From: Chrysoperla carnea
Lineage: Eukaryota > Arthropoda > Insecta > Neuroptera > Chrysopidae
DNA: 64,000 nt
Direction of reading: 5' to 3'
Assembly (NCBI RefSeq): GCF_905475395.1
Contig: NC_058337.1
Location: forward strand, 111,594,368 to 111,658,367
The number at the start of each line of letters is the position of its first letter. The first letter of the stretch is position 1. A program made the position numbers and the translations under genes. The notes beneath the pieces are model-generated. The model did no database searches, was not told the DNA's origin, and saw nothing but the letters and a program-made list of their open reading frames with translations. This document shows positions 16,501 through 64,000 of the stretch, piece after piece.

Positions 16501-19340
16501 GGATTTATTTCCGAAACGTTTTCGCAAGATTCTCCTAGAGAACAGGTGCATAGAGAAGAACATATAAGACCAGCTTTACGGCAACCACATGAGTTCTTGC
16601 ACGCTTTCTTACAATTGCAAGATATCATTTTAAGAAGGGATTCAGGAGCTGCATCTCTGTCAATTTTGAGGGGAGAGAGCCCAAATCTGGTAGATACCCA
16701 GCCCCATTCAAGAGGGTTTTTCTCTTGACCTAGCCACTTCTGTATCTTAAAAATGATACTTTTAAGCAATAACCATGCACCAACATTCAGATCATTTTAA
16801 ACAACAAATCTGACAATAACATGACAATAGAATTAATTTGTTTTTACTAAACTACTAACACTCAGCTGATCAATTAATAATGCAGGTTTACCAACCTATA
16901 TCATTGATCCCAATTATCTTAGTTAATTTATTTTGAAGATCTATAATTCAGCCATTATTTACGCTACAAACCTGGTGTTGGGCTTAAACTGCCACAAATT
17001 TATTACCCTTTAATTTATTAAAATAATATTTTCTGTAAAATAAACCGTTCGCGAGATTTCACTTAGGAATGGTCAAATTTTCGATATTTCATTAAAAAGT
17101 GGCGTGCCCCGCGGCGCGCCTTGGCACCCCGAGGTGGAAAACTTGGATTTTAAGTCATGGGCTCAACACTAACAACATATCCAAAAATCAAAACTACCCG
17201 ACCTTTTGCACAGCAACCCCATATTTTCATACATATTTACTGGATTATTTACAATGCCCATAAACACCTAAAGTAGCTTTACTTGGTTCAAAAAATTCAC
17301 ATTTGACCGTTTCTGTCAAGGGTATTCGTGATATTAATTTATAAGCTTTTCTGAACAAGAATTAATTGACAATAAGCGGTCCTCATATTTTGCACACTCA
17401 ATTCCATCCAGCGCCTCCACTATTAGATATCATATTTAGAGGAAAAAAACTGCGTGCAAACCATTTTTTTAGTAATTCCAGAATACACGTATTGAGAACT
17501 CAAATATTAATTTCTTATCGAATATAGGGTATCGCTTTGGTATGCGAATTGATTGATATGTATGGATTGAATGTAGTCCAGGCATATATGGATTATATTC
17601 AAGAAAATGCAGAAATAGCTGTACGAAATATGTTACGTGAAATTGGAAAGAAAACTTATAGTACAAATCAAACTACGACATTACAAGCTATAGATTATCT
17701 TGACGATGGTTCACCGATTCAGCTGAAAGTTAATATAAATATTGAAGAGGGTTCAGCAGTGTGTGATTTCACGTAAGTATTTCTCTCTCCAATTACTATT
17801 ATTTACTCGGAATTTATTTTAAAAGGCTGTATAGCTAAACGGAATCTTCCCATGTTTAAAGAATAAAATAATTGACATCAAGAAGTTATTATCCACTGAA
17901 TCTAAAAATACTCAAAAATAAATTATTTTTCTAGGGGTTCTGGATACGAAGTTTGGGGTAATTGTAATGCTCCAAAAGCTATTACTTTATCAGCACTGAT
18001 ATATTGTTTACGATGTATGGTTGGCCATGATGTTCCTTTAAATCAAGTAAGTGAATTTTTTAGCTCAACTCCAGTGCAGTAGAAGTAGATATATCGAAAA
18101 TCAGTTTTTTAGCGGGGTCCTATAGGCGCACCCAGATTTTGACCCAAGGGGACAACTACCTTAGCCTACCTGTCCCCTTCGCAACGCCTATACGAGATTC
18201 TTCATTTGAAAATTTTTCGGAATGAAATATTTTTGTAAGCAAATAACTTTGTTCATTTTTCTGTAGGGCTGTTTGAAACCAGTTCAAGTAATAATTCCAA
18301 AAGGTAGTATATTAGATCCAAGTGACGATGCAGCTGTTGTAGGAGGAAACGTACAAACGTCACAGCGAATAGTCGATGTTGTTTTAAAGGCATTTAATGT
18401 TTGTGCGGCATCGCAAGGGTGTATGAACAATATAACATTCGGTGAAGATACTTGGGGATATTATGAAACTGTTGCTGGAGGCAGTGGTGCAGTATGTATT
18501 CAAATTTGGAAGTCACTAATATCACATAATTCTATTTGTGAGCCTCGATAGACAAATTAGAAAGTGAATCGAGCTAACACAAATGGAATTGTGTCATTTG
18601 TGTGATTATTGCAAATCTGAAGTATTTATAAAAATAATTTTAGGGTCCAAATTGGCACGGACGAGGTGGCGTACATACACACATGACAAATACAAGAATT
18701 ACAGACGCAGAAATATTAGAACGGCGTTATCCTGTAATTTTAAAACATTTCTCACTTCGAGAAAATTCTGGCGGAAATGGCCTCTATAAAGGCGGTGATG
18801 GTGTAGTCCGTGAATTAATATTCCGCCGAATTATAACTATTTCAATCTTAACAGAACGGCGAGTTTTTCAACCATATGGTTTAGAAGGTTAACTTTTTTT
18901 TCTACTATTTCGTTGCAAAAAATTTACTTTTGCCTTGTTCTTTTTAGGCGGAGAAAATGGAGAACGTGGAGTTAATTTACTTTTAAAAGAAAATGGCAGG
19001 ATAGTTAATTTAGGTCCAAAAAATGCTATAACTGCACAACCTGGGGTAAGTTCTTATTTTAAAGAGACAAAATATCTAAATACAAAAATTTGGTGTCATA
19101 CCTTCAATAAGATGGTATCTACTCTAGATAGTGTTTCTTTGTCTAGATTTTTAAAGTAATCGTTAACAGTTTATTTACATTTTTTTACAGGATACATTTA
19201 GGTTATTGACTCCGGGTGGAGGTGGTTATGGAAAAGTTTCAGATGTGAAACCATTTACCACAGTTGAAAAAACGATTGGAAAAGTATTTACTGAACGAGG
19301 AAGTGTTCTTGAATATCGCCGAGCACAAGAATCTGTATAA
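10570..19340 (+). CDS. OPLAH: 5-oxoprolinase (ATP-hydrolysing), complete
   Basis: 5-Oxoprolinase opens 5-oxo-L-proline to glutamate with ATP, a step of the cytosolic gamma-glutamyl (glutathione) cycle. Nineteen exons: 10570-10743, 10803-10994, 11062-11353, 11772-11973, 12041-12138, 12209-12362, 12429-12666, 12728-12938, 13127-13325, 13511-13748, 14009-14286, 14675-14947, 15093-15366, 17528-17772, 17935-18046, 18267-18491, 18644-18887, 18948-19045, 19191-19340. They give 1298 residues, the usual length (about 1290). The N-terminal HyuA-like half shows DRGGTFTDI (residue about 15), [50 protein letters not shown] and [11 protein letters not shown]. The HyuB-like half shows [41 protein letters not shown] and a C-terminal TPGGGGYG. 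Exon 7/8 splicing is the one uncertain joint. Intron 13 holds a transposon. AATAAA is at 19375. Confidence 0.95.
13385..13457. repeat. Small inverted repeat in OPLAH intron 9
   Basis: TTGCAAAATGAACGTG through TTTTTTGCAC (13385-13410) and GTGCAAAAAACATTCTATTTTGCA (13434-13457) are imperfect reverse complements about 25 bp long with a 23-bp spacer. It is probably a relic foldback insertion; it lies wholly within the intron. Confidence 0.5.
15773..17212. mobile_element. DNA transposon with 266-bp terminal inverted repeats, in OPLAH intron 13
   Basis: The element begins TGTGCAAAAGGTCGGGTAG at 15773 and ends with its reverse complement at 17212. The inverted repeats (15773-16038 and 16947-17212) have equal length and differ at only a few bases by eye (for example one in the GGCGCGCC-rich block and one in the AGTTTAAGCCC block), suggesting a young insertion. 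The repeats contain a GC-rich block (GGCGCGCCGCGGGGCGCGCC) in an otherwise A+T-rich region. Between them is a minus-strand fragment coding for a CXC motif. No transposase catalytic domain is visible, so it looks like a non-autonomous deletion derivative. The flanks show no clear target duplication (GG on the left, GC on the right). It sits between a valid donor (15367) and acceptor (17527), so OPLAH should still splice. Confidence 0.9.
16335..16769 (-). pseudogene. C-terminal fragment of a CXC-motif transposon protein
   Basis: A 144-codon open frame within the inverted-repeat element. Its middle contains [20 protein letters not shown], then a Cys-rich block ([20 protein letters not shown] followed by CSSLCTC), and an acidic C-terminus. 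The Cys pattern resembles the tesmin/TSO1 CXC motif that ends many transposon-derived insect proteins. That family link is from memory. A plausible splice acceptor (TTTTTAAG) inside the first codons suggests it was the last exon of a longer gene whose front is missing here. It does not belong to OPLAH, which runs on the other strand. Confidence 0.6.
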
Positions 19341-41086: not shown

Positions 41087-44000
41087 ATGGCAAATAACGT
41101 AGAAGATTGTTCCATAAATACTGAAGAAGAGGCGAACTATTCACCAAATAAAAATGAAAATCAACGAGAATTTACAGTTGTTTACAAACCTTTAAGTTCC
41201 TATGAGCATGTTTTAAATGAGAAGACGGTTAGAAATGATTTAGCTGCAATGTCAGTATTAAGTTTATACCAAAGTGCTAAAGATCTCGAAACAATGGATA
41301 TAGCTATTCATTCTGAAAGGTGAGTTTATTTAACTCATTTTAACACTAACTATGAAATGGGTTTTAAACATTTTACTTTTCACAAAAAACAATTGCACAT
41401 AAAACATTTAAAACATGCACCATTTGTTTTTCTATTTTGTTTACGGCTTCTATGAATAAAATCTGTTAATTCTATTTTATGGAAAGAAAAACTGCCCAAA
41501 TACGATTCTGACTTGCATAAAAATAATTTTGCATCACGCATAAGCTTTGTATACTTACTAAGACATAGCGTATAAAATATTTGCGGACTGTAGGAATAAT
41601 TTAATAAAACCGGTTTCCCACAACTTTTAAAAGTTTCAGAAAGTAAGGTTTGAGTTTTAAGTAATAATGTGAGAGTATGTATAAAATTGAAAAATGGACT
41701 TTTGAAATAAACCCTATTTTCTAGGAATTTCGTTCTACGTTTCAAATTATCCTCCTATAAATAGACCGACTAAAAAACTAATGAACTTTAAAAAACTATT
41801 CAACAAGGTAAATTTCAAAAGCTATTACTCTATATGCCGATAATTAATTTTTTACTTTAAGATACAGAGGATGGCGGTAGAGTACTAAATTAGCCCTCCG
41901 ACCACTCAGTTCAGCTAGACGCAGCTATTAATTCTGATCCAAATCACAAACTTTATATGATTTTTTCGATTTTACCGATACTTGATTTTTGGACTTTTGT
42001 TAGTAGGTACGGTTTGATACTAAGAAATTCAAAATTTTTTTTGTTTCTGTTTTTAGAATGTAAAATAACAAAAAAAAAAACACAAAAATCCAAGCTATTT
42101 AGCAATTAGATTATTAGTACTCGAGAAACCGCCGAAAATAAATAAGTACAAAATGTAAAAAAATCGTCTAATACAATCCATATTTGTATTTTTTTGTCAA
42201 AATTACTATATATATACCAAGTTTTATCAAATTTCGAAACAAAAAGTTGTTTGTGAAAAAACTCGAGAAGACTTATTTTCTAATTACGACTATACTCTCT
42301 ATAAACGATAATTTTGGCTCAAAAATAATAAACATTTTATTCATTTGACGATTGAATAAATAGTTTCAAAGACACTGTCCAAAATCCCATACGAAGAGGG
42401 GTTTCTCGGCTCGATATTTCAGACAATTTCTTACAAAATGTTTGTCTAGTTGTCAAATGTATTTTTTTTACTTTTCTGTACAGTAGTATATTTAACCCCG
42501 ACAAAAAGAGCGAGCATAATTCGAAATTCTAATATGAGTATGCCTGTTTGTGGCGTCATAACTCCCGGATACGTCGATTTCTTGATTCAAAATTGAAAGC
42601 TGGTTCAATCGGGATGATTGTTACCGATGTATGTCGGAAGTCTGTTCAACAATTATGCTTTTTTTATTTATTATTATATTAATAATAAATTTAAGCTTTT
42701 TCTATTTGTTGTATTAATAATGTATTAATTGTCAGTGGATTAAGCATCGCTATATACCAGATTATTAAAATTTTACAATCGTGATGAGTGTGCTTGTAGA
42801 AAGCAAATTTTTTGAAAAATAAAAAAAAAAAAATATTTTGCCTTTTAAAAGTGAAATTTTTCAATTGTTTCAGCGAAAATGAAGACCAAAGTATACCCTT
42901 ATCTGAAATTAAACTTGATGATGAAAATCATCTATCACCAAAGAGTTCCACACCAAATTCGGCTAAAAACCCAACTGACTGTCCATGTAAATTGTATCCT
43001 AATTCAATTAAATTAGTAAGCTGTCCGATGCCGTCATTATATTTTGAAGATGGCAAAAGATCTGTGGATTTTATTTTAGTATGGGATAGTTTTATTGACG
43101 TAGCAATTACAGAAATAGCAACAGAAAGGCGTGCAGTTTTTGAAAAAAATTTAATGGCAGAGGGATTAGAATTAGAATATGAACCAGTAAATGAAACTGG
43201 TTTAAATTTTATTAAAATTCATGTACCTCATGAAGTTTTACGACGTTATAGTGAAATTCTAAAATTACGTATGCCTATGAAAGAGGTATTTACATGGAAA
43301 TTTTTCATTAATTTTTTTATCGATGTTGTAGCAGATTTGTCATATTTCTCTTTTTACTTTGATGTACCTATCTAAACCCGTTAGCACACGGCGCCTACTT
43401 CAAGCAACTTTATACACAATCAAAGAATTTATTACTGCCGATATGCAGGATAAACAGTGATTAGAATAGTGATTCTATGGAATACCGAATATTCAATCAC
43501 GTTCTTGGAGCCTCGGTATAGACATAAATGCTTTGAGTATGTTTCCAGCATTGCTACAACAATATAAATGCATTGTGTTTGAATATGATGGTATTTCTAA
43601 ATTTTCGTGGGAAAGGTTATCTACTTCTTCAGTTTCGAAAGAAATGGCAATTCATCACTGTGGCCAAATTTTTTCTTATTTCTGATATTAAATTTAACGA
43701 AATTGATAGGAAATATGATTATGAATACTGCAGTCGTTATAAGGAAAACATATTTATGTATTTTATGTTTAGAAGCTATAAAAGAAGAAAAGAGCCCTTG
43801 GATTGAATAAAATATTGCGTAACATTTCCAAACAAAAATTAATCAAAATACGATTAAGTCAAACAATACAAAATCACAAATATAACTCTTATTCTCTTTT
43901 AAATCGTCCTCGGAATTGCTGAAATACTCTGTGGCTTAACAAATTACAAACTAAAACGCATTAAAGAGGTTGGCCTATTTAATGATAAACAAGAAAAACT

Positions 44001-47000
44001 ACATCTGTTTTTTCTGTTGTGGACAACTAAGGCTTAAATGCATTTAAAAGTCACTTGGTCACTTAAAAGGCGAGTGTGTAAAAGGTTTAGTAAGAATTGT
44101 AGTTCATAGATTCAGTTTCAGTGGTAGTTTTATCCGCTTAAGACGTTGTATACATTTTTTTAATTTGATGGCACCACAGCTGCATGAATTGGCTTATATA
44201 AAAACATAAAGTTTCAAAATTTTTAGACTTCATTTAGGAACCTCAATATTCATTTAGGTATTCATATAAAATAATGGCATGATTGTTAATTTTATTTCTA
44301 GGAACTATGTTCATTTGAAAAAGGTGGTAAGCTTAATAAATTACTACACGCAACGCAATTTATTTCGCAAAAGGTATTGTCACACTAGACTTTTATAAAT
44401 AAAAAAAATTAACTAATATTATAATAAACTCCATTATAGGCTTTTAATAACCATGCATGTGTGATATAATTAACTTACGCTTAGCTAATATTTGAATCCT
44501 TTTTACTCAGAAGCATGACATAATTAAATGGTGAGTTTATGTTTATCCAATAGTTTATTAAATTAGTTCCCAAATTAACTTTTATATGTTGTGTAAACGT
44601 TTAAATGCATAATCTTGAGGTATCTGTACACTATGGAGCAAAATTTACTACAGTGTGTTCTCCTGCTAAAGTTTTCTACGAAGAGCAGTTTAGAGTCCTG
44701 TTAGAGTTAATCTACGAAATTTTGTTTATGTACGTTTTGTGTACGTTGAACCTAATTTTTACTCTGTATTCTCTAGCTAGCTCTACTCTATTCTAAGCTC
44801 TAGTTAGCTCTACTCTATTCTTATTCTAAGCTTTACTCTAGCTTAATCAATTGCAACCACAATGTACAGATATCTTTTGAAATGTTGTCTAATGTATAGT
44901 GATTTGTGTACAATTTCGTAACCTGGAAAGTGGTAAAAGTTCCGCAAAAGATAGCCCAACTTATATTGAATTAAAAAAAACTTTCATCAGTGTCCTGAGT
45001 GATTTTCGACATTTTTTACGAGATTGTTATAGATAATTAAAATTTAAAAAAAATGGAACGTAAGGACGTGAAACTTGAGTGGAGAGGAAAAAAGGCGCCT
45101 GTCTGGGCGAGATCTAGCCCTCGATCGTTGCGTACTTTGTACTGCGCATCATGCTGTCTTTTATTTTCAATTTTTTGTCTTTTGTTTTTAAACAATTGAA
45201 AGTGATTGAAAACAATTTCAATTGTTTTCAATCACTTAGATGATTAAGGGAACGACCGATGATTAGACCCCGCCCAGTTAGGCGTCGTAAATTCAGCCAC
45301 GGACGCTTATAGCCCGGCATAGGAAGTTTTTAACGCATGAGCAATATAGGCCCTTTTTGATCAAAATTTATTTGACGGCTTTTTAAATGTTTATAATGTC
45401 TACTATTGCACATGCGTCCTCTAGTCGACAAATGACTTACAACTTCAGTTATAGACATAGACATATATGGTTTTATATCTATGGTTATAGAAAAGGCTTT
45501 ATTGGAATGTAGTCTAGTAAAATACGTTACTATTGGTTTAAATAATAATTGGGCAAAGTTTTCAAGACTGATATATTTTACGTGCTAATTTAGATTTCAA
45601 AGTCAACTATATATTTCCATTTTTAAATAAGATGTTGAAAATTTATGGAGTGAATTAAACAAACACACTTTGGAAAATAGAGGAAGATCCTATTTTATCA
45701 CTTTGCCATTTTGCGAGAACCTATAAACTTTCTTGTAAATTTTTGTACTAATAAGGAAATTTTCTGAATTAAAACATCACTTTACAACAAAGTCGTATAT
45801 TGTCTTTTAGATACCCGGTTTAGAAAAAATGCATAATAAAACAAATACATTCTTTGATGAAATGAATTCATACTGGGACGCATTCTGGTCAAAAATTTAC
45901 GTTGATAAAAGAGTGTTTCCAGAACGAAGTCATCGTTTCACAGCCGTTTATAGTCGTGATCGTGAATACTTGTAAGAGAAAAATTTCTCTTAGTAATCAT
46001 TAAAATTGTTATTAATACTTCTAATTTTTAGATTTGATTTAGATTCGCCATGTTTCTTTACACCAGCCATACATTCACGTATAGCACAATTTATTTTGGA
46101 TCGTAAACGATTTAGTGATAACGAAAATGATGATTTTGCATTTGGAATTGAACGATTGATTAATGATTATACGTATAGTGCAGCATATCCATTACACGAT
46201 GTAAGAAAATTAACCGTTTAAAATATTTAACAATTATTTTCACTATTATTTATTAATTTTTAGGGTGATTTACGAACAGCAGGTTCAATGCGTCACTTGT
46301 TGTATCATGAATGGGCAGCACTGAGAAAATGGTATCGTTATCAACCATTAGATTACATAAAAGAATATTTCGGAGTAAAAATTGCATTGTATTTTGCATG
46401 GTTGGGATTTTATACACACATGCTGTTACCTGCATCCATTGTAGGGGTGGCTTGTTTTATTTATTCATGGTTGACACTTGATTCGAATAGACTTTGGTAA
46501 ATATTTTAAATTCTGTATAAGGTTATCATCAGACTTCTTTTCAGAGTTGAAGTTTTATTTTGGTTTAGTGAGGATCATAAAACTCTAGAAATTTGAAAGG
46601 TTTTGAACAGTAAACGACATCTTGACGACTACGCGAACAGCGTTAAAATTAGACTTAACTTCTATAATATGTATACCCACTTTAAGTTGATACAATAAAT
46701 ATCTATTTTCCAATGCGCAAGGGTATTAATAAAACTGCTGGTGACCGAGTTCAAAACACATAACAGCACGTTTTGCTATCATTAATTTTGTCCAACATAT
46801 AAACAGAGAATATCCTTCAAATTGTAAATTCATTTTAAAATTTTCGTAAGGATGTAAATTAAATTATATTTTCATTTTTAATACAGCCAAGATATTTGTA
46901 AAGAAGATTTAAATATTAAGATGTGTCCAATATGCGATCATTGGTGTGATTATTTCGATATTAAAGCTACCTGCCTGCATTCAAAAATTACGTATTTGTT

Positions 47001-50000
47001 TGATAATCCAACAACAGTATTTTTTGCAATTTTTATGTCATTTTGGGGTAAGCCTTAGTTAAATTTTTTCGCGTGAAGTTAGTTTTAAAATATTTTATAA
47101 TAACTCATAAACTTTTTATAGCAACATGTTTTTTGGAATTATGGAAACGTTATTCAGCGGAAATAACACATCGTTGGGATTTAACGGGTTTTGATGTAAA
47201 AGAAGAGCATCCTCGTCCACAATATTTAGCACGATTAGCACATGTAAAACGTCGTCGTATAAATATCATAACCAATACAATGGAACCATTGGTACCATTT
47301 TGGCGTGTTAAAGTACCTGCTACAATTTTAAGTTTTTCCGTTGTACTTTTATTGGTAGCATTAGCTGTTGCGGCTGTGATTGCTGTTGTTTTATATAGGA
47401 TGTCTGTTTTAACGGCATTGAGTTGGTATGGCGGCAAAGATTCTGTGATTACAAGTAATGCGATTTTATTTACAACGGCTACTGCTGCAAGCATTAATTT
47501 ATGCTGTATTATGGTTTTTAATTGGGTAAAAATATTTTATTTAAAAATTAGGTATTTTTCTGTCTTTTTACTGTTTGCTGAAAGCGTATTTCTTTTCAGA
47601 TTTATACGTACGTTGCTCAATATTTAACAGAAGTGGAACTTTTACGCACACAAACTGAATTTGATGATTCATTAACGTTAAAAATATATTTATTGCAATT
47701 TGTTAATTACTATGCTTCGATATTTTATATTGCATTTATAAAAGGGAAGTATGTTGGATATCCTGGAAATTATATTCGTTTATTTGGATATAGGCAAGAA
47801 GAGGTAGGTAAACGAACAAGCACAAGCTTATTAAATGCATGATGAGCTCTTACGTGATCAGTAATACTGTCAATATCTCTATAATTTTGGAGTGTGGCTA
47901 CATATAATACACTAATGGGTTTTATAAAACAATCCGGGTGCCTTTCAGTATTTTCAACATTGTATCAGCATAGCAATGTATACGATAAAAAATATTGTCA
48001 ATATTTTTGTAAATAATGATCGTGTAATGATTTCAATTTTCGTTGATCTGTTACATTTCCGGCCAGTTTTAAGATAAGACATTTGCCAACCTATTTAATC
48101 ATAAACGTCGACTGTTTATTTCTGTCTTTCATTGTACTTGTAATTAATTCATTTTTCTCTGGCTCGCTTTCTTGACTAACGGATCTATGATTTGTTTCAA
48201 AATGCTATAATTGAGATAAGGCCTCTAAATATGCGTACAAAAGACTAAAATTATAAATTTCAATTTGCCAATAAGTGAGCGTGGATAAATTACATGACTC
48301 AATTCCTGCCTCTTTAGTATCCCCCCCCTTCCATGTAACCTTTACTATGATTCCCCCTCGAGTGGAACGTAGTTTTTTTTATTATCAAGTCAAAGACATT
48401 TTGTATTTTCTGGAACACTGGCAGTATGGCATTGTAAGGACCCATTGTTGAAAATTAAATATCCATACACCGCAAATCAAATTTTCATTGTGCCAAAAAC
48501 AATATATCAAGAACATTATGTAGCTTAATTTCTTTGCCACCCTCCCTTGACATAGCTCATCGTAGCTTTTAAGCTAGCCCCCTCTCTCTCTTGATCGGGT
48601 TTATGGATTTTCCATAAGTCAGAATTTTAGTTCGATTTAATTTTCAAAAAGTTTGATGATCGCTGGTTTATGCCATGGTTTAAAATTATGAGTTTAATTT
48701 ATAAATTTTAGTGTGGACCCGGAGGATGTTTATTAGAATTGTGTATTCAACTAGCAATTATAATGATTGGAAAACAAGCAATGAATACAATACTCGAAAT
48801 GATTTTACCAATATTTTATAAATGGTTTTATACACTTAAAACGAAAACTGGAATACATCGAGAACAATTATCACTAAAAAATCCCGTACAGTGGTATAAA
48901 GATTTCAAATTACTTGATTGGGGTGCACGTGGTTTATTTCCCGAATATTTAGAAATGGGTATGATTATAATATTAGAAAATGCAAAGTATTCTAAATCAT
49001 TTACACTGAATAGGACATTTTAGTTTTACAGTATGGATTTGTGACAATTTTTGTGGCAGCATTTCCATTAGCCCCATTTTTTGCTCTGTTAAATAATATT
49101 TTGGAAATGCGTTTAGATGCAAAAAAATTATTAACCTTTTATCGTCGACCAGTGACGCAACGTGTTCGAGATATTGGTGTTTGGTATCGAATACTTGATT
49201 CGATTGGGAAATTATCCGTCATTACTAATGTAATTAATGACAATAATCTTTGTATTTTATTCAAGCTCTTGATTCACTCTTAAATATTGCAGGGTTTCAT
49301 TATTGCTTTTACATCAGACTTTATCCCACGTCTAGTGTACAGATTTGTTGAGAGCCCAGATGGCTCATTAAATGGTTACTTAAACAGTTCATTATCGTAT
49401 TTTAATACAAGTGATTTTCAAGTTGGTTCTGCACCTCGAAATACACAGTTTGGTAACCTAACTATTTGCAGGTAAATTCATTTATCTTTTATCTGTATTG
49501 ACATAGTATACTATTAGGTTCTTTATTTTTTCATTGATAGGTATCCTGATTATCGAGAACCTCCATGGTCTCCCAACAGATATGATAAAACTATTATAGC
49601 GTGGATTATTTTAGCTGCTAAATTGGGTTTTGTTGTGATATTTGAGGTAAGAATTAGAAATAGTATTCCTTAGTAATAATAATTATTCATAAGAGGGGTA
49701 CCGCTAGTGGATCCCTAGCACATAGACAAAGGGATTCTCTGTGCCCTCCTTGAGAACAACCTGTAACCCCTTTTTAAGCAGACGAAGCTATAAGATTCTG
49801 TCGAGGCCAGACGCTAAGCACAAAGCCTACACAATTGACCGTTTCACGGTTTCGGAGTCAAATATTTTAAACCTGACGCCCTGCAGGTTTCTGTAGGTAA
49901 GATAACATTTATGAAGGTTCCATCGTCCTCCATACAGGCTCTACAAAGTGGGAGCATGAGAGATCCTCATGCTATGAAGGTGGTAGTTAAATTAACAGTG

Positions 50001-52795: not shown

Positions 52796-55700
52796 ATGTT
52801 AAAAATAATTTATAGAAATTTTTCGAATAATTTGTTTTTGTACAGGAAATTTTCTAGTAAGGTTAAAAATTCTATCATTTGAGTACAAGGGCTCATGTAA
52901 GAAGAAAAATAATAATCTAATTAGCTTAAATATTTTTTAATCGAATTTTTCCACATTTTATTTTTAATATAATGTGAGATCGTTCAGGGTATATAGAAAT
53001 ATTTTGCAAAAATTTGTTAAAAATTTATTATTTTTATCTATTTTTCTCTTACATGGATAGGCTTTTGTATTATGGAGATTTAAAATTTAAATATTTTTGC
53101 TTAATAACAGATACCTGATAATGACTATATCCAAAATATGCATAAATTATGGACAGCAGATCCAAAAAATGTTCACGAGGTCAGTATGCGTTTAATTTAA
53201 AAGGTGGCCAAAAATTCTACCTTTGAATGACGTTAAACATCAATGTGGGAAACATCAGGGAATAATATAATAAGTTATACTGGAAAATCAATTTTGAACT
53301 TTATTATTGTGGCCAATTTGAATTAATCTTGGTATCCTTATTAAGTTTGAATAAATAGTTTGCTAAATTATTTTTAGACGTGGGATATGTATTTTAGAAA
53401 TATTCTTTTTTCTGATTTTGAAAGTACAAAACAGTTAATAAAAACAATTAAAAAAATTCCAACAGAAGTACAAAAAGCAGTTACTGATACAAAACAAATT
53501 ACTGATTCACAAAAGATTGCCGATACACAACAAAGCACTGATACAAAAAAAATTGCCGATATAATAAAAGTTGCTGAAACACCGAAAATTCCTAAAAAAC
53601 TCACCCATACACAATCTTTTACATCAGATTCATCAGATATTAATAAAATTTCAAATTATTATGGTCATACCACCAAAGAACCAGAAGCACCAGCCGAGGA
53701 TTGTAAAAGAACGGATGTTTTTAATTTTCCAACCATCGAAGTAATAGAATCAAAAAAATACGACTTAACTAATAAAATAACATTTAAACAAGATTTAACT
53801 ACTTTGACCGACTGTAGTGAAGATACATGGCTATTTTTATTGTGCAGAAAATATCAAGTAAGTTAAAACTGTTTTTCGGATACATCTCTGACTAAATTAA
53901 AATGACTAGGCTAGGCAAGTAGTTAAACGTTATCGATCCAAGTCATTTGTTTACTTACATTTAATGTCTTTTGTTTTGTTAATTACTACTTGTTTTTGAA
54001 TATTTGTTTTTAAAATTTTGCGTCCATTCATCCGTATTGCTAATAACTACACCTTAAAGGTAATGTTTTACAAACGGTTTTAATTTTCAAAGGTGGTACG
54101 GTCATGTTTTATCAACGACGGTAGCATTTATACCCACTCTGCTATTTAAACATATCATCCATTTTATGTGATTTGTTAAACATTAATTACAATTTTTTTT
54201 GCAGAATTATGGTCACTTTTTGGCTAAAACTGACCCATTAGAATATACACGCAATGGTAATCAAAATTAAAGTTTTTTTAAATTCTGTTATATTTTCAGT
54301 TTTGGCATTAAAAAACATGAAACGAATTTTTAGGAACTTCATAATTACGCAGCACTACGACTGTAAAAAATCTTGCCTTTTATAATTTTAGTTTAAGGCA
54401 CCAGACAAAACTTACCATTTAGTAAAATGTCAAGGCATTTAGTAAAGCTGTGGCACATAATAAGTTGATTATTTTGCCAATTTGCCGCTTTCGGAAAAAA
54501 ATTTTAGTCACTCTGCTTAAACCTAGTCTTATTTTTGTCTGTATCATACAATTCAATAAAATTATTATTTAATTTCAACAGATGTACTTATGAAATATCG
54601 AATGGCTATAGAACACACACTTGAAACTTTAAAAGGTAAACAATTTCAAAAATCACTAATTTTTTTAACTTTTCGCTCAAATAGAATTTGATATCTTTGC
54701 CTGTTTATGGTTAGGGCAACAAGTGAAGGTTCTTTAAGCTGAATGTGATTCAAATAGGAAGGATCCGATAAATTTTTTATTTATTTTAACACTAAAAGGC
54801 CTTTTGCGCAATTGTATCATTTCAATCATATTTGGATTAATTGAAATGGTTTAAATTCAAAATAACAAAGGTCTGATAAATAAATTATTATAGTCTAACA
54901 GAGAAATTTAACTGAGAAAAAGATTGGTTGTCAATCAATCAATAATCTTCTTTACCAAAATTTATTGGCTCTACGCTTCCACAGGAATTTCTTTCTTGAT
55001 TTTGGTGTGTTATAAAGAAAATTTGTTACAGATATATAGTTAAAAATAATTTGATAAAGCTTTTTTTAATTTTATTTATCTATTTAATTTGTTTGGTACA
55101 TAAATTTTTATTTTACACTAGAAAAAATTCATGCGGATAAGGAATGTTATTTATCATCTATAACGAATATTGGTGGACAAAATATTACACTACCGTTTAA
55201 AGAAATAGTTAAGCGCCTTGAAAAAGTTTATACGAGTAGTATGGGTATACAAACTAGACAAAATAATCGCATTTTTATAAAGAAGTGGATTCAGAAAAAA
55301 GTTGAATATCCTACGCTATATGAAAATGTAACCCCGTTGGAAAAGCTGATTGCATTAAAACGTTTAATAAATACCACAGGGTAATAAATATTTTTAAAAG
55401 AGTTATGAGCATTAAAAAATCTAAAACTTCATTTATATTCACTAATAAAATTTCTCACACATTTTACTAAAATTTTAAGGTGTCTGTTCAGTAAGAAGTT
55501 CAGATACTTTTAAGTTTCCGATTACATCTAAAATAATATTTATATATTTTGATTGATAACTAGATTTGATAAATTTGTGGCAAAAAATTGGCCAAACGAA
55601 GTTTCATATGGTTTCAATGGATTGGAAAGTGTTATTCCAGCATTAGGTCAAATCATAGATACAGCTTCTTCCATGGGAGTGACTCAAGTTCTAATTGGTA

Positions 55701-58700
55701 TGGAACATCAAGGTCGTTTAAATGTAATTGCTAACATCCTAAAAATACCATTACGTCGAATTTTTGCTTTATATGGTGATCCCGTAAGTAATGCATATTT
55801 CCCTTATTTTATTTATTCAATTAGTACGTAAAACGATCTACATTGAAAACGCAGATCGGTTTCCAAGGATAGCTAAGAACACTCCCCATTCGGGAGTTAA
55901 AAAAATCTGTGATATCTATTTATTTAAAAACGAAAAATTCAAATGTTACAAAATTAGTGTTGCAAATATGATAATTTAAATGAGATAATTTTAATCAATT
56001 AATTATAACTAATTTATATAATTTAGAAAGGTAACCTGACAATGGGAACTTCTAATCAGTTTTTAAATTTAACATCAGAAAAGCATATCCGTTTATCAAT
56101 AAGTCCTAGTTCAAGCCATGTCGAATATGCTGGTCCAATTTTAATGGGCAAAGCCAAAGCGTTAATATCTCAGAAAAATGATTTAAAAGGCAAAAGTGTT
56201 TTGCCAATAGTTATTCATGAAGACTCGGCATTTTCTGGTCAAGGTGTTTGTTTTGAAACAGTGCGATTTGATCAATTACCATTATATACACCGTTCGGAA
56301 CGATTCATGTGGTATTAAATGATTATATGACTACATCTACACATTCATCAAGTACCCGATCCACAATATATCCTACGGCAGTTTCTTTCGTAAACGAAGC
56401 ACCTGTTTTCCACGTTAATGGAGATGATATCGAAAGTGTACTTTATGCAGCCAAATTATGTGCCGAAATACGTCAACGATTTCAAGCTGATGTTATTTTA
56501 GATGTTGTTGGATACATTCGTGATATGGGAAATCTTCAATTTGTTGAACCGATTATGTATTCAAAAATTAATCAAATGGAGCCAGGTAAGACACGAAGAG
56601 GCAAGATGGATTTGATAAACTTTGATTATGAAAATTTACACCTTTTTTGGCAATACAACTCAGTATTGGCCTGCGTTGTCCCTCTTGATATGTCGATTAC
56701 TGGTCTTTCATGCAAAGATTTTCATCTTTCTTGGGTCTGTTTGCAATTTATCTCTCTAGTACCTTCCATTTGGGCTCTACAGATTAAATTTGAAACCAGT
56801 TATTCTGCCATCCATGCAATGTGTCCCAATGATGTGTATCTGAGATTTGGCAAAGCAAATAATATATTCTCTTTCATTTTCGTATTCGATTTCGTATGTC
56901 GACATAGTTGATGATTTCTTGAATATGAGAAAAGGTCGAGGACTCATTTGAATTATCTTAAATTCATAAAAATTTCAGCTCTTTTCTTGAACTGTTTGAA
57001 AGTAATTTGAGGGTTGCCGAACTTTTTTCCATCACTGTGAATTCCCTCTAATAGTAAAAATATTTCATCGTAAATTATTTCTGATATAGTAATGGATAAA
57101 TTTTACGCTCAGCTAAAAAATGAGAAAATAGTAACGGAATCAGAATACAAAATGTTTAAAGACGATTACGACCGACGATTAAAAGAAGAATTTGCGAAAA
57201 GTGGAGAAGAGAAACCTGATGCGGAACATTGGATAGACTCTCCATGGAAAAGTTTCTTTCAAGGGACAAATCTATTTCATTGCGATGCAACAGGAATTCA
57301 TGAACAAACGATTTATCATACGGGGAAAAAACTTTCCGAATTGCCATTAAAATATGATTTACATCCACAGGTTGTGCGTGTCCTTCAAAAAAGAAAAGAA
57401 CTGATAAAAGAACGTTTAATAGATTGGGTATTAGCTGAGGGTATAGCTTTTGGTTCGTTACTTAAAATGGGAATTCCTGTAAGATTATCTGGCAGTCAGG
57501 TTGCAATTGGGACATTTAATCAAAGACATCATATACTTTACCATCAGACTAAAGATAAGGTTTGTTACAACATATTGGTTATTTTTATATATCAGCCCAA
57601 AAATTGTCACCTTACACAAACGAATTTTTATTTGTGTAAAAATTATTCCTGTATCCCAAAACCTATATTATTTATTTATTATTCATTTCGGCGCTTCGCC
57701 TGAGATATTAAACCGCTCTTATTCCCTTTTTTACATCCAAATTTAGCATACTCAATACTGACATTTCCAAAATTTTTGTTTGGAAACTATAAGTCTATGA
57801 AATAAAAATCAAAGTTATTAAAAAATGTATGTATAATTTAGGTAGAATATCACCCATTGTCTAACATATATCCCGATCAAGCGGAATATTTAATAATTAA
57901 CAGTCCAGATGCTGTAAATGGTACATTGGCATATGAGGTAGGATTATCTACAATATCTCCAAAACTTCTTGTTGTATGGGAAGCTACATATGGTGATCAA
58001 GTAAATCTTGCTCAAACCGTTATAGATAATTATATTGCGTCAGGAGAAGCAAAATGGAGACGTCAAAGTGGACTCGTTCTATTATTACCGCATGGAATGG
58101 AAGGGGAAGGCGCAGAACGTTCAAATGCCAGACCCGAACGCTTTTTATGTCTTTGTAATGATGATCCTGAATTGCTACCAACCGAGACTTCTGATGTCAA
58201 TTTTAATATGAAACAATTGTATCATTGCAATATTATTGTTGCAAATTGTACAACACCTGCTAATTATTTTCATATTTTGCGACGTCAAATTCTATTACCA
58301 TTTCGTAAACCACTCATTTTATGTACACCTAAAAGTATGATAAATAATTCTTTATTCAGGAGTTCATTTGAGGATATAATTTATCCAACAGAATTTAAAC
58401 GTATTATATCAGAATTTGATGAATCGGCTAGCAAAGATCAGTTCGATAATGTTGTAAAATTAATATTTTGTTCGGGTTCCGTTTATTATGATTTAATGGA
58501 AGAACGAGAAATGAGGAATTTAAATGAACAAATTTCAATTGTTCGCATTGAACAGGTTAGATATAATGAATATTATTTTTATAGATCGATAAAATTAAAC
58601 TCACCAATTATTCGCGAACACTTTCAAAGGATATCGCCATTTTCGAAAATTGTTTCGAATAAAAAATTTTAGGTTTTTTTATGAGAAAAAATTTCCTAAT

Positions 58701-59460
58701 TTAAACAGAATAAGATGTCTCCCTTCAAACTCAATAATTTTGTCTAAGCCAGATTTGTATAGCTTGTGTATTTTAAAACATTTTTGAATTTATCGATTAA
58801 AATGACGCATCTTAAATAAGCCTAAGTAGCCAAAGTTATTGATCAAGCAATTTGAGATGTTTCTGTAACTTAAGTTTAATATGCCTATTTATTAATATGT
58901 TTAACGAAATATTGTTGTTATTTTATTAAAATAGCTAGCACCGTTTCCGTATGATTTAGTAAAAATAGAATTAGAAAAGTACAAAAATGTAAAACAAATT
59001 GCATGGGCCCAAGAAGAGCATAGAAATCATGGTCCATGGTACTTTATTGAACCTCGTCTTCATTATCTTGGAGTTGAAAACTTACAGTATGCATTTATAC
59101 ATTTTTGGAACGAAGTTCCTTATAGCACGTAACTCTCTAAGGTTTCGTTTGTAATATACATGCCTGTGTATATTACTGCAGTGCAGGTCCTTACATGTGA
59201 GTTTAAGTGTTTTTACTTACCTATAAGAAGAAGTAGTAATATACATACGTACGTTCGAAAAACAGACAGAATATAGTAATATCCTTGTGAAAGGAACTTC
59301 GTTCCAACGGTGTGTCTCACGATAACTCATTTTTTCAAATTTTATTTGAAATTTTTTAAGGTATATTGGACGGTTAACATGTGCAGTACCCGCTGATGCA
59401 TATGAATCCCGATTTATAGCTCAACGTAACGCATTTTTAATAGAAGCTATGAAAATTTAA
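52796..59460 (+). CDS. 2-oxoglutarate dehydrogenase E1-like protein with altered active site
   Basis: E1 of the 2-oxoglutarate dehydrogenase complex decarboxylates 2-oxoglutarate with thiamine diphosphate in the mitochondrial matrix. Twelve exons (52796-52861, 53111-53179, 53378-53857, 54205-54256, 54582-54635, 55122-55380, 55564-55783, 56027-56585, 57090-57559, 57842-58555, 58935-59086, 59361-59460) give 1064 residues. Exon 1 is a basic, acid-free presequence (MLKIIYRNFSNNLFLYRKFS). Family landmarks follow: YIQNMHKLWTADPKNVHE, GRLNVIANI, AFSGQG, APVFHVNGDD, RLIDWVLAEGIAFGSLLK, VLLLPHGMEG, ARPERF, TPANYFHILRRQILLPFRKP and AWAQEEHRNHG. Many catalytic motifs are changed: HRGR to HQGR, the YHLG block lost, HGDA to HEDS, NNQIGFTTDPR to NDYMTTSTHSS, GHNExDEP to GNLQFVEP, QDVERGTF to SQVAIGTF, PEHSSAR to AERSNAR. 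The frame is intact, so this looks like a maintained pseudoenzyme. AATAAA is at 59510. Confidence 0.9.
59105..59307. repeat. MITE with GGAACGAAGTTCC ends in the last intron of the E1-like gene
   Basis: TTGGAACGAAGTTCCTT (59105-59121) and AAGGAACTTCGTTCCAA (59291-59307) are perfect 17-bp inverted repeats; each end is itself palindromic (GGAACGAAGTTCC). About 200 bp, non-coding, inside intron 11. It does not touch the splice sites. Confidence 0.7.
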
Positions 59461-59879
59461 AGAATTTTATTGTCATTGTTTAAATAATTGAATTTGTTTT
59501 TTTAACATCAATAAAACATTCTAAAAAATTTATTTTATTTCTTTTACGAAAATCTCGAGGACAATGCATAAAGAAATATCTTGCTGATCTTGACACTAGC
59601 CTCTAGTGTAAATCTAACACATATAATGTCCGGCGGAAACACGCATGACCATTTCTCTAACACAGCTCCGGTACTATAAATTTATGATACATTTTAATCT
59701 CAATTTTTAAAGCCAACTATTTAGTTTGTGAGTACATTTTAACATTGTTGCCAAGGAACTCATGTACTATCCAAAATATTTATTGTTAATGGTCATTCGT
59801 TTTTGTACTATTTGTTCGGGTAAAATGCAGTAAAAAAAATTATACATAAAATAAACAAATTAATATTTAAACTGCCAAT
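59461..59879. other. Short spacer between the tandem E1-like genes
   Basis: Only 419 bp separate the stop of the first E1-like gene from the start of the second. It holds AATAAA (59510-59515) of the upstream gene, so the promoter and 5' untranslated region of the downstream gene must fit in the remaining ~360 bp. No TATA box is obvious. Confidence 0.5.
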
Positions 59880-62800
59880 ATGTCACGTTATTTACAATTA
59901 ATTAAAAAAACTTCCGGTTGTATTTCGCACAAGGTTTGTCTAATATTTTTAACTACCTATATAATATTTCCTATTGTTCAAGATTTACACGATATAAGGG
60001 TAATCTGCATTTTGACGAGATGCCAATTATGATGGCCATTGGCCGTTTGATTGAAAAATAAAGCATGTTGTCTTGTCGATCTAATATAGGCCCACGATTA
60101 GGTCGTTAACATCTGGTAGTGTGAATGCACCCTTAACATTTTTTGGACAAGAGAATTGTATCACAAAATGATATTTTATTTTCGGTTCCAAAAACAGTTT
60201 TCATTGTACAAAAATCAAAGTTAATAGTTTTATTAATCATATTTAATATTATACATGATGACCCCGTAGACGTACAAAATGAACTAAACAATACCCTCCA
60301 GAAATTGACCACTCTCTAGAAAAAGCATTGCTACCCGTCTCCGTATATACTTCACAGCTGAATAGGGAACGTTCAGTTCATTTTCTTTGTCTATGGATGA
60401 AACGTTGTGAATTTAAAATTGGGGATACTAAAAGTATTTTTCTATAACAAGATGTCAACTTGTCGCACATCGCGTTAGTATCAACTCAACATAAGAGATA
60501 GACAAAAAAGTACAGAGTCCATTAAACAACTTTTTTATAAATATATTATAAAAAGATGGGACTCTTAGGCCACCGAAAGTATAGAAACTAAAGAATTGCA
60601 TAGTATATTTCAGTTAGCTTCTCTTTATTCAATGTTGATTTCTCCGATTATGACAAAATCCATCAACAAAACTGTTAAAAAAAATTTATGTTCTTCACAG
60701 GAATGGATTAAATACATGGTGCGATATTTAAACCAACAACCGTATGCTAAGTTTGATTTCTTTGAGGATAATGACTGGATACCCATACTTTCCACGTCGG
60801 ATCAACAAACAGCAAATCATTTAACTTTATGCCATTTAATTCATAATTTTCAAGTATATCAATTTAAAAAACTTTTTTTACTCCCGAGTGCTTTTAGCCC
60901 AAATATCCTAGTTCAAAGACCTACACACATTTGGATAAGAATCGAACCGATGATCTTTTACATACCGAAGAAGTACACTGTACATCTAAATCACCAGTTA
61001 ATGGTGACAGAGTAGAAGTAAACTCTATGTAGATACCTTCGTGATTTTAATTAAAAGCGTAAGGACAAAATGATTATAATTTGCTAAAAGCGTTCGGATA
61101 ATTCTTAAACAATAATAATTATGCTGATAGTATTTTCTTACAGGCCAGAGGTCATTATTTTGCGAAATTAGATCCACTGGAAATTTCGAATCCTTTAGAT
61201 ACTGAAGGTGATAAAATTGAAACTGTTAGTAAATTAATACAAATTCGATTTAACCAAATAAAAAGTAAGCTTTAAAAAAATATAATTTAACACAATTTAA
61301 TTACGATTTTTGGTACTGATTGATTGAATTTTAAAATCTTAGTCCAACTATGTCGTATATAGGCAGAAATACCTTTTTTTAAGAAAATTCGTAATAATTT
61401 GTATTTACTCTTTCAAGCACAATTTGCAAATGATAAACGTGAATTTAAATTACCACCTACGACATTTATTGGAGGTGATACGGATTCATTAACGTTGCAA
61501 GAAATATTTAAACGTTTAGAAAATATTTATTGTGGTCCACTTGGAATTGAATATGTATATATTGCTAATTTAGTTTGTGTTGAATGGATAAAAGAAAGAT
61601 TAGAAACACCCGGTGAAAAAGTTACTAAATTGGAGAAACAAATAGCACTTAAGCGTATAACAAAAGCTACTAAGTATGACACATTTATATATCTTAATAA
61701 AATGTAACTCCTTTACTCTTCGAGTTATTAATTGTTTTAATTTCTTGCTAAGACTTGAAGATTTTTTTGCAAAAAAGTGGCCAAGTGAAAAACGTTTTGG
61801 TATAGAAGGGCTAGAAACTGGTATTGTAACATTATCACATATAATTGACACGGCAGCAACATTGGGCGTTGAGCATTTTGTCATTGGAATGGCCCATCGT
61901 GGACGACTTAATGTTTTAGCCAATGTTGCTAGAACACCATTGTTTGAAATAATTTCGCTATTTCAGGATATAGAACCGCCTGAAGATTATGTAACGTATA
62001 CTTAAGTTTGAATTTCAATTTGTCATTAGTAAAAGTACTTTGTGTTTCCCAAATTGACTTTGTTGCATGTATATACATTATAAAACTTTAATTAATAAAA
62101 ATTGCATCACTTTTATACCGGGACTATGATCTTGACGCAACACACATCAATTGTTGGGATTCTTTCAAAAAACATTTATAGTCTATGCCGTAAATTTTTA
62201 TTCACATTTTAAATTTGATCGCAAATCAATATAAAACGAAATTACTTGATAAATGGCGTAGATTAGCATCTTTAAGTTCAATTTGAATCCAGACCCAATT
62301 TACGAATAAAGTTTTTTTTTTGAAGTAAGCAAATGAGAATTATCGAGTTACAGGCTAAAAATGTGTTTTAAAGGAATTCAAACAATTGATGTGGGTTACG
62401 TCAGAATAGAAACCTCGGGTTAAAAACAGGCCTATTTAGAAATTGTAAAAAATAAAAAAAACTAATTCCGAAATTTTCCATCATAAATTCGATCAAACTT
62501 CAAGACTCAAATTTATTTGATAACTCAAATAACCAGCAAAATTGTTAGACAACCGCAACTCATTTCATAAATATCCAAATTTAAAAATTACCTTCGACTG
62601 ATAATAATAAGAATGTCTGATACTGTGTTGACTAATTTCCAGGGTGCAGGTGACGTAAAATATCATTTAGGAACCACTGGCACATTTTTTAGTAAAACAG
62701 CAAACAAAAAAGTACGTGTAACAGTTGTAGCAAATGCATCACATTTAGAAGCAGTCAATCCGATCGTTCTTGGGAGAGTAAAAGCAGAATTGGTACACAC

Positions 62801-64000
62801 GAAAGATAAAAAAAAGGTACTGCCTATATTAATTCATGGTGATGCATCTTTCTCTGGCCAAGGAATATGTTTTGAAACAATACATTTAGCAAAAGTACCT
62901 CATTACAAAGTATACGGAACTGTGCATATTATTTTTAATAATCAGATTGGTTTTACAACTGATCCACGATTCCACCGTTCATCTGCTTATTGCACGGATG
63001 TTGCAAAAGTTTCCAATTCACCGATAATTCATGTAAATGGTGATAATGTTGAGGCTGTTTTACAAGCATCCAAATTATTAACAGAATGTCGAATGAATTT
63101 TCTTGATCATGATGTTGTACTTGATATAATTGGTTATCGTCGACATGGTCATAATGAAGCTGATGAGCCCATGTTTACGCAACCATTAATGTATACAAAA
63201 ATTAAAGCATCCCCTACAAGTAAGTTCACCTGGTCTTATTTGTATTAATAGGAGCGATGGACAAAATCAATCTTGGTCTTGCTATTGTAAGGATGTAACC
63301 TCATGATGATAGTTGATGCTGGCTTTGAGCGTATTTTTATCTATTAGATAGTTGATACGTTCTTCGCTTCGACGCTTCTAAGTTTATTTCTGGATGGCAG
63401 GACGGCCTAAACTTACCACGTGACCTAACTTGACGCTCAAACTCAGCGTCAAGCATCAGCTTGAAAATACACCTTTAAACTTGCAAGATCATGACTACTT
63501 CCATAGAGTAATACCAAAATCCATAATTACTCTAGTCCTAAGTCGATACGTACTAGAATTTGAACTCTATTGTTGCTGCTATTTTATTTCAATTAAATAA
63601 ATTTTTCTTTGCACTTTTAAAACAAAATTTTACCTTTTAGTTTTAGAAAAGTATTATCGGGAATGTCTTAAAAACGATCTAACAACAAAAGAAGAACAAT
63701 TAAAGTATGAAGAAGATTTTCTTAAAATGTTGGAAGCAGAATATGAGAAAGGTAAAGCACAAACAGAAATTCATCCAGAAAATTGGGTTGAAATTAATTG
63801 GCCAACTTTCGGTGTTCCTACAAATGGTGAACCGCCAAAAACGGGCATAAGTGCTGATGTGATCAATCATATAGGTACTGTTTTTGCATCCCGCCCAACA
63901 GAATCAAACTTTGACTTTCATATAGGAATAACTAATATTTTAAACAAAAGAGTAAAATTACTTGAGGATAAGTCTGTAGATTGGGCTTTAGCTGAAGCCA
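59880..64000 (+). CDS. 2-oxoglutarate dehydrogenase E1-like protein, active site retained, 3' partial
   Basis: Seven exons are in the window (59880-59933, 60701-60853, 61144-61264, 61418-61673, 61753-61990, 62643-63219, 63641->64000), about 586 codons; the gene runs off the right edge. Exon 1 (MSRYLQLIKKTSGCISHK) is a basic mitochondrial presequence. Landmarks are ARGHYFAKLDPLEI, LPPTTFIGGDTDSLTLQEIF, WPSEKRFGIEGLETG, MAHRGRLNVLANV, GAGDVKYHLGTTG, NASHLEAVNP, HGDASFSGQG, NNQIGFTTDPRFHRSSAYCT, RRHGHNEADEPMFTQPLMYT and VDWALAEA at the edge. All catalytic motifs of E1 seen so far are kept. These motifs place it with OGDH rather than the DHTKD1 paralogue. It is diverged from the housekeeping type and appears to lack the second exon of its neighbour (YIQNMHKLW..). 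Shared intron positions and the shared presequence-K|intron joint support tandem duplication. Confidence 0.9.

Follow-up and report, generated by a model that had tools for sequence, protein, structure and literature searches.

Two neighbouring E1o-like genes

The window analysed here, a stretch of 64,000 nucleotides from Chrysoperla carnea (NCBI RefSeq assembly GCF_905475395.1, contig NC_058337.1, positions 111,594,368 to 111,658,367 of the forward strand), ends in two genes that resemble the E1 subunit of 2-oxoglutarate dehydrogenase (E1o). A preliminary description, made from the sequence alone, had reported them as tandem E1o paralogues, one of them with damaged motifs, and this observation is confirmed. 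The two genes, termed copy A and copy B here, run in the same direction and lie 419 bp apart, as described: the stop codon of copy A ends at 59460 and the ATG of copy B begins at 59880. Judged by its protein sequence, the status of copy A as a pseudoenzyme is well supported. The following features belong to the two genes.

52796..59460, plus strand: copy A, E1o-like gene of a putative pseudoenzyme, 12 exons, 1064 residues (splice model, Pfam and PDB match)
52796-52861, 53111-53179, 53378-53857, 54205-54256, 54582-54635, 55122-55380, plus strand: exons 1-6 of copy A
55564-55783, 56027-56585, 57090-57559, 57842-58555, 58935-59086, 59361-59460, plus strand: exons 7-12 of copy A
52796..52861, plus strand: presequence-like exon 1 of copy A, 22 residues with five K/R and no D/E
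53123..53404, plus strand: candidate E2/E3-docking segment of copy A, residues 27-54, PF16078, with the intron 53180-53377 inside
53469..53581, plus strand: tandem repeats of 18 and 36 bp, located within the exon of copy A that codes for the linker from docking segment to core
59510..59515, plus strand: AATAAA, resembling a polyadenylation signal, 50 bp past the stop codon of copy A
59880..64000, plus strand: copy B, E1o-like gene cut by the window end at residue 586, motifs intact in the visible half, no PF16078
59880-59933, 60701-60853, 61144-61264, 61418-61673, 61753-61990, 62643-63219, 63641 onwards, plus strand: exons of copy B
60632-60700, plus strand: alternative start of copy B in frame with exon 2 (ATG at 60632), 23 residues with four K/R and no D/E

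The intact frame of 1064 residues that had been described for copy A holds in our splice model: all 11 introns are of the GT-AG type and there are no internal stops. Pfam finds PF16078 (28.8 bits), E1_dh (PF00676, 90 bits), Transket_pyr (PF02779, 93 bits) and OxoGdeHyase_C (PF16870, 141 bits) in the protein, the same domain order, PF16078 included, as in human OGDH. Among solved structures OGDH is the best match, with 754 bits spanning 855 residues; the OGDH chains in PDB entries 7wgr and 8i0k we take to be human. With the NCBI equivalog models for 2-oxoglutarate dehydrogenase E1, copy A scores just below the cut-offs, namely 747.6 against 764 for NF006914 and 694.5 against 770 for TIGR00239, both cut-offs having been made for prokaryote proteins.

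Copy B matches E1_dh with 171 bits, and OGDH is again its best solved structure (478 bits, against 248 bits for DHTKD1). A DHTKD1-type E1a was considered for this gene and ruled out by these scores and by the tree given below. Copy B had been called catalytically intact, and for the alpha/beta-1 half this stands: all 12 named active-site positions that fall within the window carry the OGDH residue. The second half, with the places of the catalytic Glu and of His708, lies past the window end. Of the presequences described for both copies, that of copy A is matched by its presequence-like exon 1. The start of copy B is uncertain (59880 or 60632), and the exon at 59880 is possibly not its sole presequence.

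Damage to the active site of copy A

The proteins of both copies were aligned with human OGDH, DHTKD1, E. coli SucA and 76 bacterial E1o proteins. The bacterial rows were taken from stop to stop and may include untranslated N-terminal letters; 4 of 80 bacterial loci (L020, L023, L050 and L066) were dropped because they had no stop-free piece of at least 850 residues with the motif. As active-site positions we used the 15 named for human DHTKD1 (PMC8146983, PMC7340257). Their numbering was anchored at Asp333, and 10 further DHTKD1 letters that were checked all agree with the published names.

Of these 15 positions, copy A agrees with OGDH in 4, namely His223, Ser288, Asp333 and the Glu at 707, and it has a DHTKD1-type Tyr at position 190. 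The magnesium ligand Asn366 is replaced by Asp, Leu290 by Val and Gly369 by Thr, and the equivalents of His264 and His708 have become Asn and Arg. For His435, the multiple alignment gives Gly and the phmmer alignment a deletion. All seven motif changes named in the preliminary description are found in the splice-model protein and in the alignments, those with human OGDH and SucA included. Five of them are listed here together with two residues of the second domain.

55720..55737, plus strand: HRGR changed to HQGR, His223 equivalent retained, Arg gone
55772..56044, plus strand: active-site loop and YHLG lost, 11-residue deletion relative to human OGDH, His264 equivalent gone, intron 55784-56026 inside
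56216..56227, plus strand: HGDA changed to HEDS, magnesium-ligand Asp retained
56318..56350, plus strand: NNQIGFTTDPR changed to NDYMTTSTHSS, magnesium-ligand Asn changed to Asp
56519..56551, plus strand: GHNExDEP loop lost, 4-residue deletion, acyl-transfer His435 equivalent gone
57914..57916, plus strand: Val in place of the catalytic Glu (DHTKD1 Glu640); Glu in 77/77 bacterial E1o proteins, human OGDH and DHTKD1
58118..58120, plus strand: Arg in place of the active-site His (DHTKD1 His708); His in 77/77 bacterial E1o proteins

The other two changes turn QDVERGTF into SQVAIGTF and PEHSSAR into AERSNAR. QDVERGTF is altered as described, but its E is not the catalytic Glu, since DHTKD1 has Gly at this place; the catalytic Glu of the family stands in the human motif SEYG (DHTKD1 Glu640). 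The longest core deletions of copy A relative to human OGDH comprise 11, 5 and 4 residues. The active-site loop has lost the 11 residues and the loop with His435 the 4, while the deletion of 5 residues is near the core start, in the variable N-terminal part, where copy B has a 9-residue deletion too. Copy A is thus damaged in both domains and with them in both halves of the domain-swapped active site. Unlike human OGDH, it has neither the catalytic Glu nor three of the active-site histidines. Given these combined losses, activity of the protein is unlikely.

The losses are selective. Columns were taken as invariant when human OGDH and no fewer than 95% of the 77 bacterial E1o proteins share the residue, which gave 183 columns. 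Copy A retains 19 of 49 invariants in the active site and 106 of 134 elsewhere (Fisher p = 5.8e-7). The earlier statement that the fold of copy A is kept is supported. Copy B, within its range in the window, retains 40/42 and 48/56, and DHTKD1 41/49 and 117/134. Nine combinations of threshold and site set all point in the same direction (p <= 0.003). When the site mask was shifted circularly, the observed loss was matched at 2 of 183 positions under the main definition, and over the nine definitions at 1-2 of 120-210; all these counts contain the unshifted mask itself. The motif changes in copy A are therefore not a matter of chance, because the loss is concentrated in the active-site invariants.

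Docking segment and origin of the pair

The N-terminal segment of copy A matches PF16078 above the cutoff of 27 bits in the whole protein, and with 35.8 bits in a 42-residue piece. With an N-terminal profile built from bacterial E1o N-termini, copy A ranks first of 3505 sequences. In human E1o, residues 18-22 (YVEEM) and 27-40 (LENPKSVHKSWDIF) have been described as a candidate E2o/E3-binding segment (PMC8146983), and in models based on cross-links it is the N-terminus that ties the E1o dimer to the E2o core (PMC9974300). At these places copy A reads YIQNM and TADPKNVHETWDMY, of which, counted by eye, 2/5 and 6/14 residues are identical to human. The stretch ahead of the core measures about 187 residues in copy A and about 50 in copy B; 121 are reported for human OGDH.

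A Pfam search with either possible N-terminus of copy B gave no match to PF16078. A missed docking exon was looked for in plus-strand stop-free pieces of at least 12 residues starting between 59400 and 61200, and none scored above 0.5 bits with the N-terminal profile. As far as these profiles can tell, copy A retains the docking segment and copy B, unlike human OGDH, is without it. This difference goes beyond the preliminary description. In having about 50 pre-core residues and no OGDH-type DLST-binding motifs copy B is similar to human DHTKD1, which retains its active site; by score and tree, however, copy B is nearer to OGDH. DHTKD1 still binds DLST without these motifs (PMC7340257), and its own N-terminus is protected by E2o (PMC8146983). 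Copy B may therefore not need copy A.

For the tree we used 22 rows and 513 columns, with 18 of the 77 bacterial rows, hand-picked for spread. Copies A and B are sisters (support 100/99), and together with human OGDH they form a group (100/100) apart from the 18 bacterial E1o proteins and DHTKD1. Joining copy A alone, or copy B alone, with human OGDH was rejected in each case (approximately unbiased test, p = 0.003). The branches measure 2.2 for copy A, 0.69 for copy B, 0.73 for the stem of the pair and 0.65 for human OGDH; copy A and DHTKD1 are long branches and were flagged as such by the tree tool. Past the docking region the two genes have five phase-matched introns in common, of which three coincide exactly in the alignment and two lie at most 5 columns apart.

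Copy A is 43% (366/845) and copy B 44% (220/505) identical to human OGDH; over the part covered by copy B the values are 38.5% and 43.6%. The copies share 34.5% identity over 554 aligned positions, while human OGDH and SucA share 38.9% over the part covered by copy B. At codon positions 1 to 3, the two copies differ by 0.51, 0.36 and 0.58. The identity of insect OGDH to human OGDH lies well above the values of both copies. Probably neither copy is therefore the ordinary OGDH, and the ordinary enzyme would be encoded elsewhere in the genome. By these comparisons copy B is itself a divergent paralogue, a point that the preliminary description had missed.

The rest of the window has an animal-like gene content and, with the two copies included, a G+C content of 29.8%. 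Parts of four other genes lie upstream of copy A: one with a MAM domain, one arrestin-like, one RFC1-like and one for an anoctamin. Of the upstream genes identified, the anoctamin gene is closest to copy A:

42800-49283, plus strand: anoctamin (TMEM16) gene, present in pieces, with matches to Anoct_dimer (95 bits) and Anoctamin (113 bits)

A Cys-rich open frame on the minus strand (16335-16796) has no Pfam match at an E-value of 0.01; as a guess, it possibly stems from a repeated or mobile element. A PDB search with a 5-oxoprolinase-like piece gave no match, and neither Rfam (at the gathering threshold) nor ARAGORN found anything in the window. In viral contigs, scanned for relatives of copy A, a pattern matched 9 stretches, none of which is a relative.

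Possible roles of copy A

We favour, with moderate confidence, the reading that copy A is a docking-competent, non-catalytic structural pseudo-E1o. A non-catalytic structural role had already been proposed in the preliminary description, and with the frame intact, the fold kept and the active site destroyed it is the best reading of the data. The protein would be a mitochondrial paralogue of the 2-oxoglutarate dehydrogenase E1 subunit that neither activates thiamine diphosphate (ThDP) nor transfers acyl groups to lipoate. It would keep an E1-like fold, may dimerise as E1 does, and probably docks on the E2o core (and E3) through its retained N-terminal segment. The uses that we infer to be left for such a protein are those of a structural or occupancy subunit on E2o, which we prefer, of a dominant-negative subunit, or of a structural protein of specialised mitochondria. 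Possibly it acts in the male germline, by analogy with the sperm S-Lap pseudoenzymes discussed below.

Several observations weigh against this reading or restrict it. The invariants outside the active site are also fewer in copy A than in copy B in six of the nine definitions (57/87 against 77/87, p = 0.0005, in one of them; 47/65 against 57/65, p = 0.047, in another), and this difference is gone when the loops are counted as active site (43/56 against 48/56, p = 0.33). By these counts constraint on copy A is relaxed outside the active site too, though far less, and its evolution, about threefold faster than that of copy B, also fits relaxed constraint. The magnesium-ligand Asp and His223 are retained. 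Glyoxylate carboligases carry Val where the Glu of ThDP enzymes stands (PMC3534367), so that the Val of copy A alone is no proof of lost activity. With respect to docking, a simulation describes E2o as shielding the E1 N-termini without direct contact, although cross-links in the same paper involve the N-termini (PMC10003691). Finally, oxoglutarate or ketoglutarate is not mentioned in the main text of an insect duplication survey (PMC7560327) and of a Culex sperm proteome paper (PMC9934393).

That the motif losses merely reflect a wrong choice of exons or a faulty assembly, for which we saw no indication, has a practically negligible probability. We compared the window by tblastn with six E1 proteins (copies A and B, human OGDH, DHTKD1, SucA and one alphaproteobacterial E1o), and no match outside the exons had an E-value below 0.94. 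The introns of copy A hold no alternative exon that would restore the motifs (best E = 6.2), which speaks against wrong exon choice, and the five introns common to both copies, equal in phase and at most 5 alignment columns apart, three of them exactly placed, argue against an artefact as well. Most improbable, too, is that copy A is a decaying pseudogene. Its fast branch, with 2.2 changes per column, and its lost active site would fit decay, but there are 1064 stop-free codons, 11 intact introns, a presequence-like start and a polyadenylation-like signal, and the losses concentrate in the active site. Moreover, we simulated neutral drift on the coding sequence of copy A, with point substitutions only and no indels, in 20 runs per level. 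Drift to 95, 90, 80 and 65% amino-acid identity produced on average 5, 11, 22 and 34 stops, with at least 15 stops in the 20 runs at 80%, whereas copy A has none. Hence, it has not been neutral for much of its history.

The remaining alternatives concern what an expressed protein would do. The preliminary description had suggested that a live and a dead subunit form a heterodimer, with a single site at work, and so tune flux. The layout of the locus would fit this, since the two E1o genes are adjacent and point the same way, and the visible half of copy B is intact where copy A is damaged. In an A:B dimer, however, one site would be without the alpha/beta-2 Glu and His and the other without the alpha/beta-1 loops and His. 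Since both half-sites of copy A are broken, no whole composite site is left and the dimer should be inactive rather than half-active, which makes this version highly unlikely. The same damage favours a dominant-negative protein that pairs with copy B or the ordinary OGDH, or fills E1 sites on E2o, and so lowers flux: mixed dimers should be dead, the docking segment is retained, and a single OGDH match extends across 855 residues. The low identity between the copies makes compatible interfaces doubtful, and the mixed dimers are putative; we regard a dominant-negative role as possible but doubtful. It is very unlikely that copy A still works as a ThDP enzyme of altered chemistry, doing without the glutamate as glyoxylate carboligase does. 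A family of ThDP enzymes with Val in place of Glu exists and the magnesium-ligand Asp and His223 are kept, but two cofactor-ordering loops are shortened, a third is rewritten, and the equivalents of Gly369, His264, His435 and His708 are all replaced or lost. Unlikely, too, is an interdependent pair with reciprocal losses, in which copy A docks without catalysis and copy B catalyses without docking. Dimers of both copies might sit side by side on one E2o core, or exons 1-3 of copy A might be spliced to exon 3 onward of copy B, giving one E1o with both functions. The donor after exon 3 of copy A (53857) and the acceptor of exon 3 of copy B (61144) are both in phase 0 and in the same alignment column, and thus such a transcript would stay in frame.

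For the structural pseudo-E1o that we favour, known systems provide partial precedents. Drosophila S-Laps have altered active sites; S-Lap1 and S-Lap6 were inactive when expressed, and the proteins form part of the paracrystalline material in sperm mitochondria (PMC6388916). S-Laps are under strong purifying selection, and one cluster may retain activity (PMC3078892). Like copy A they are enzyme paralogues with replaced active-site residues and a kept open frame; reaction and protein family differ. The Drosophila gene CG33791 is named as alpha-ketoglutarate dehydrogenase (PMC7808736) and is among the top 20 in a table of sperm protein abundance (PMC9494239); in this way it lends indirect support to the germline role that the preliminary description had guessed at. 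E3BP is related to E2, not to E1. Like the proposed copy A, it is retained as a non-catalytic subunit, here of the pyruvate dehydrogenase complex, another of the 2-oxo acid dehydrogenase complexes (PMC9974300). Among the matches listed by a literature search that covered few subscription papers, there is no title on a pseudo-E1 of such a complex.

Pseudoenzymes are common, and we consider the reciprocal loss of docking and catalysis to be the new and most interesting part of this locus. If copy A indeed combines E1 docking with a lack of catalysis, it would be a natural separation-of-function tool for the role of the E1 N-terminus in complex assembly. Such a protein would also bear on the reuse of metabolic enzymes as structural components in sperm mitochondria.

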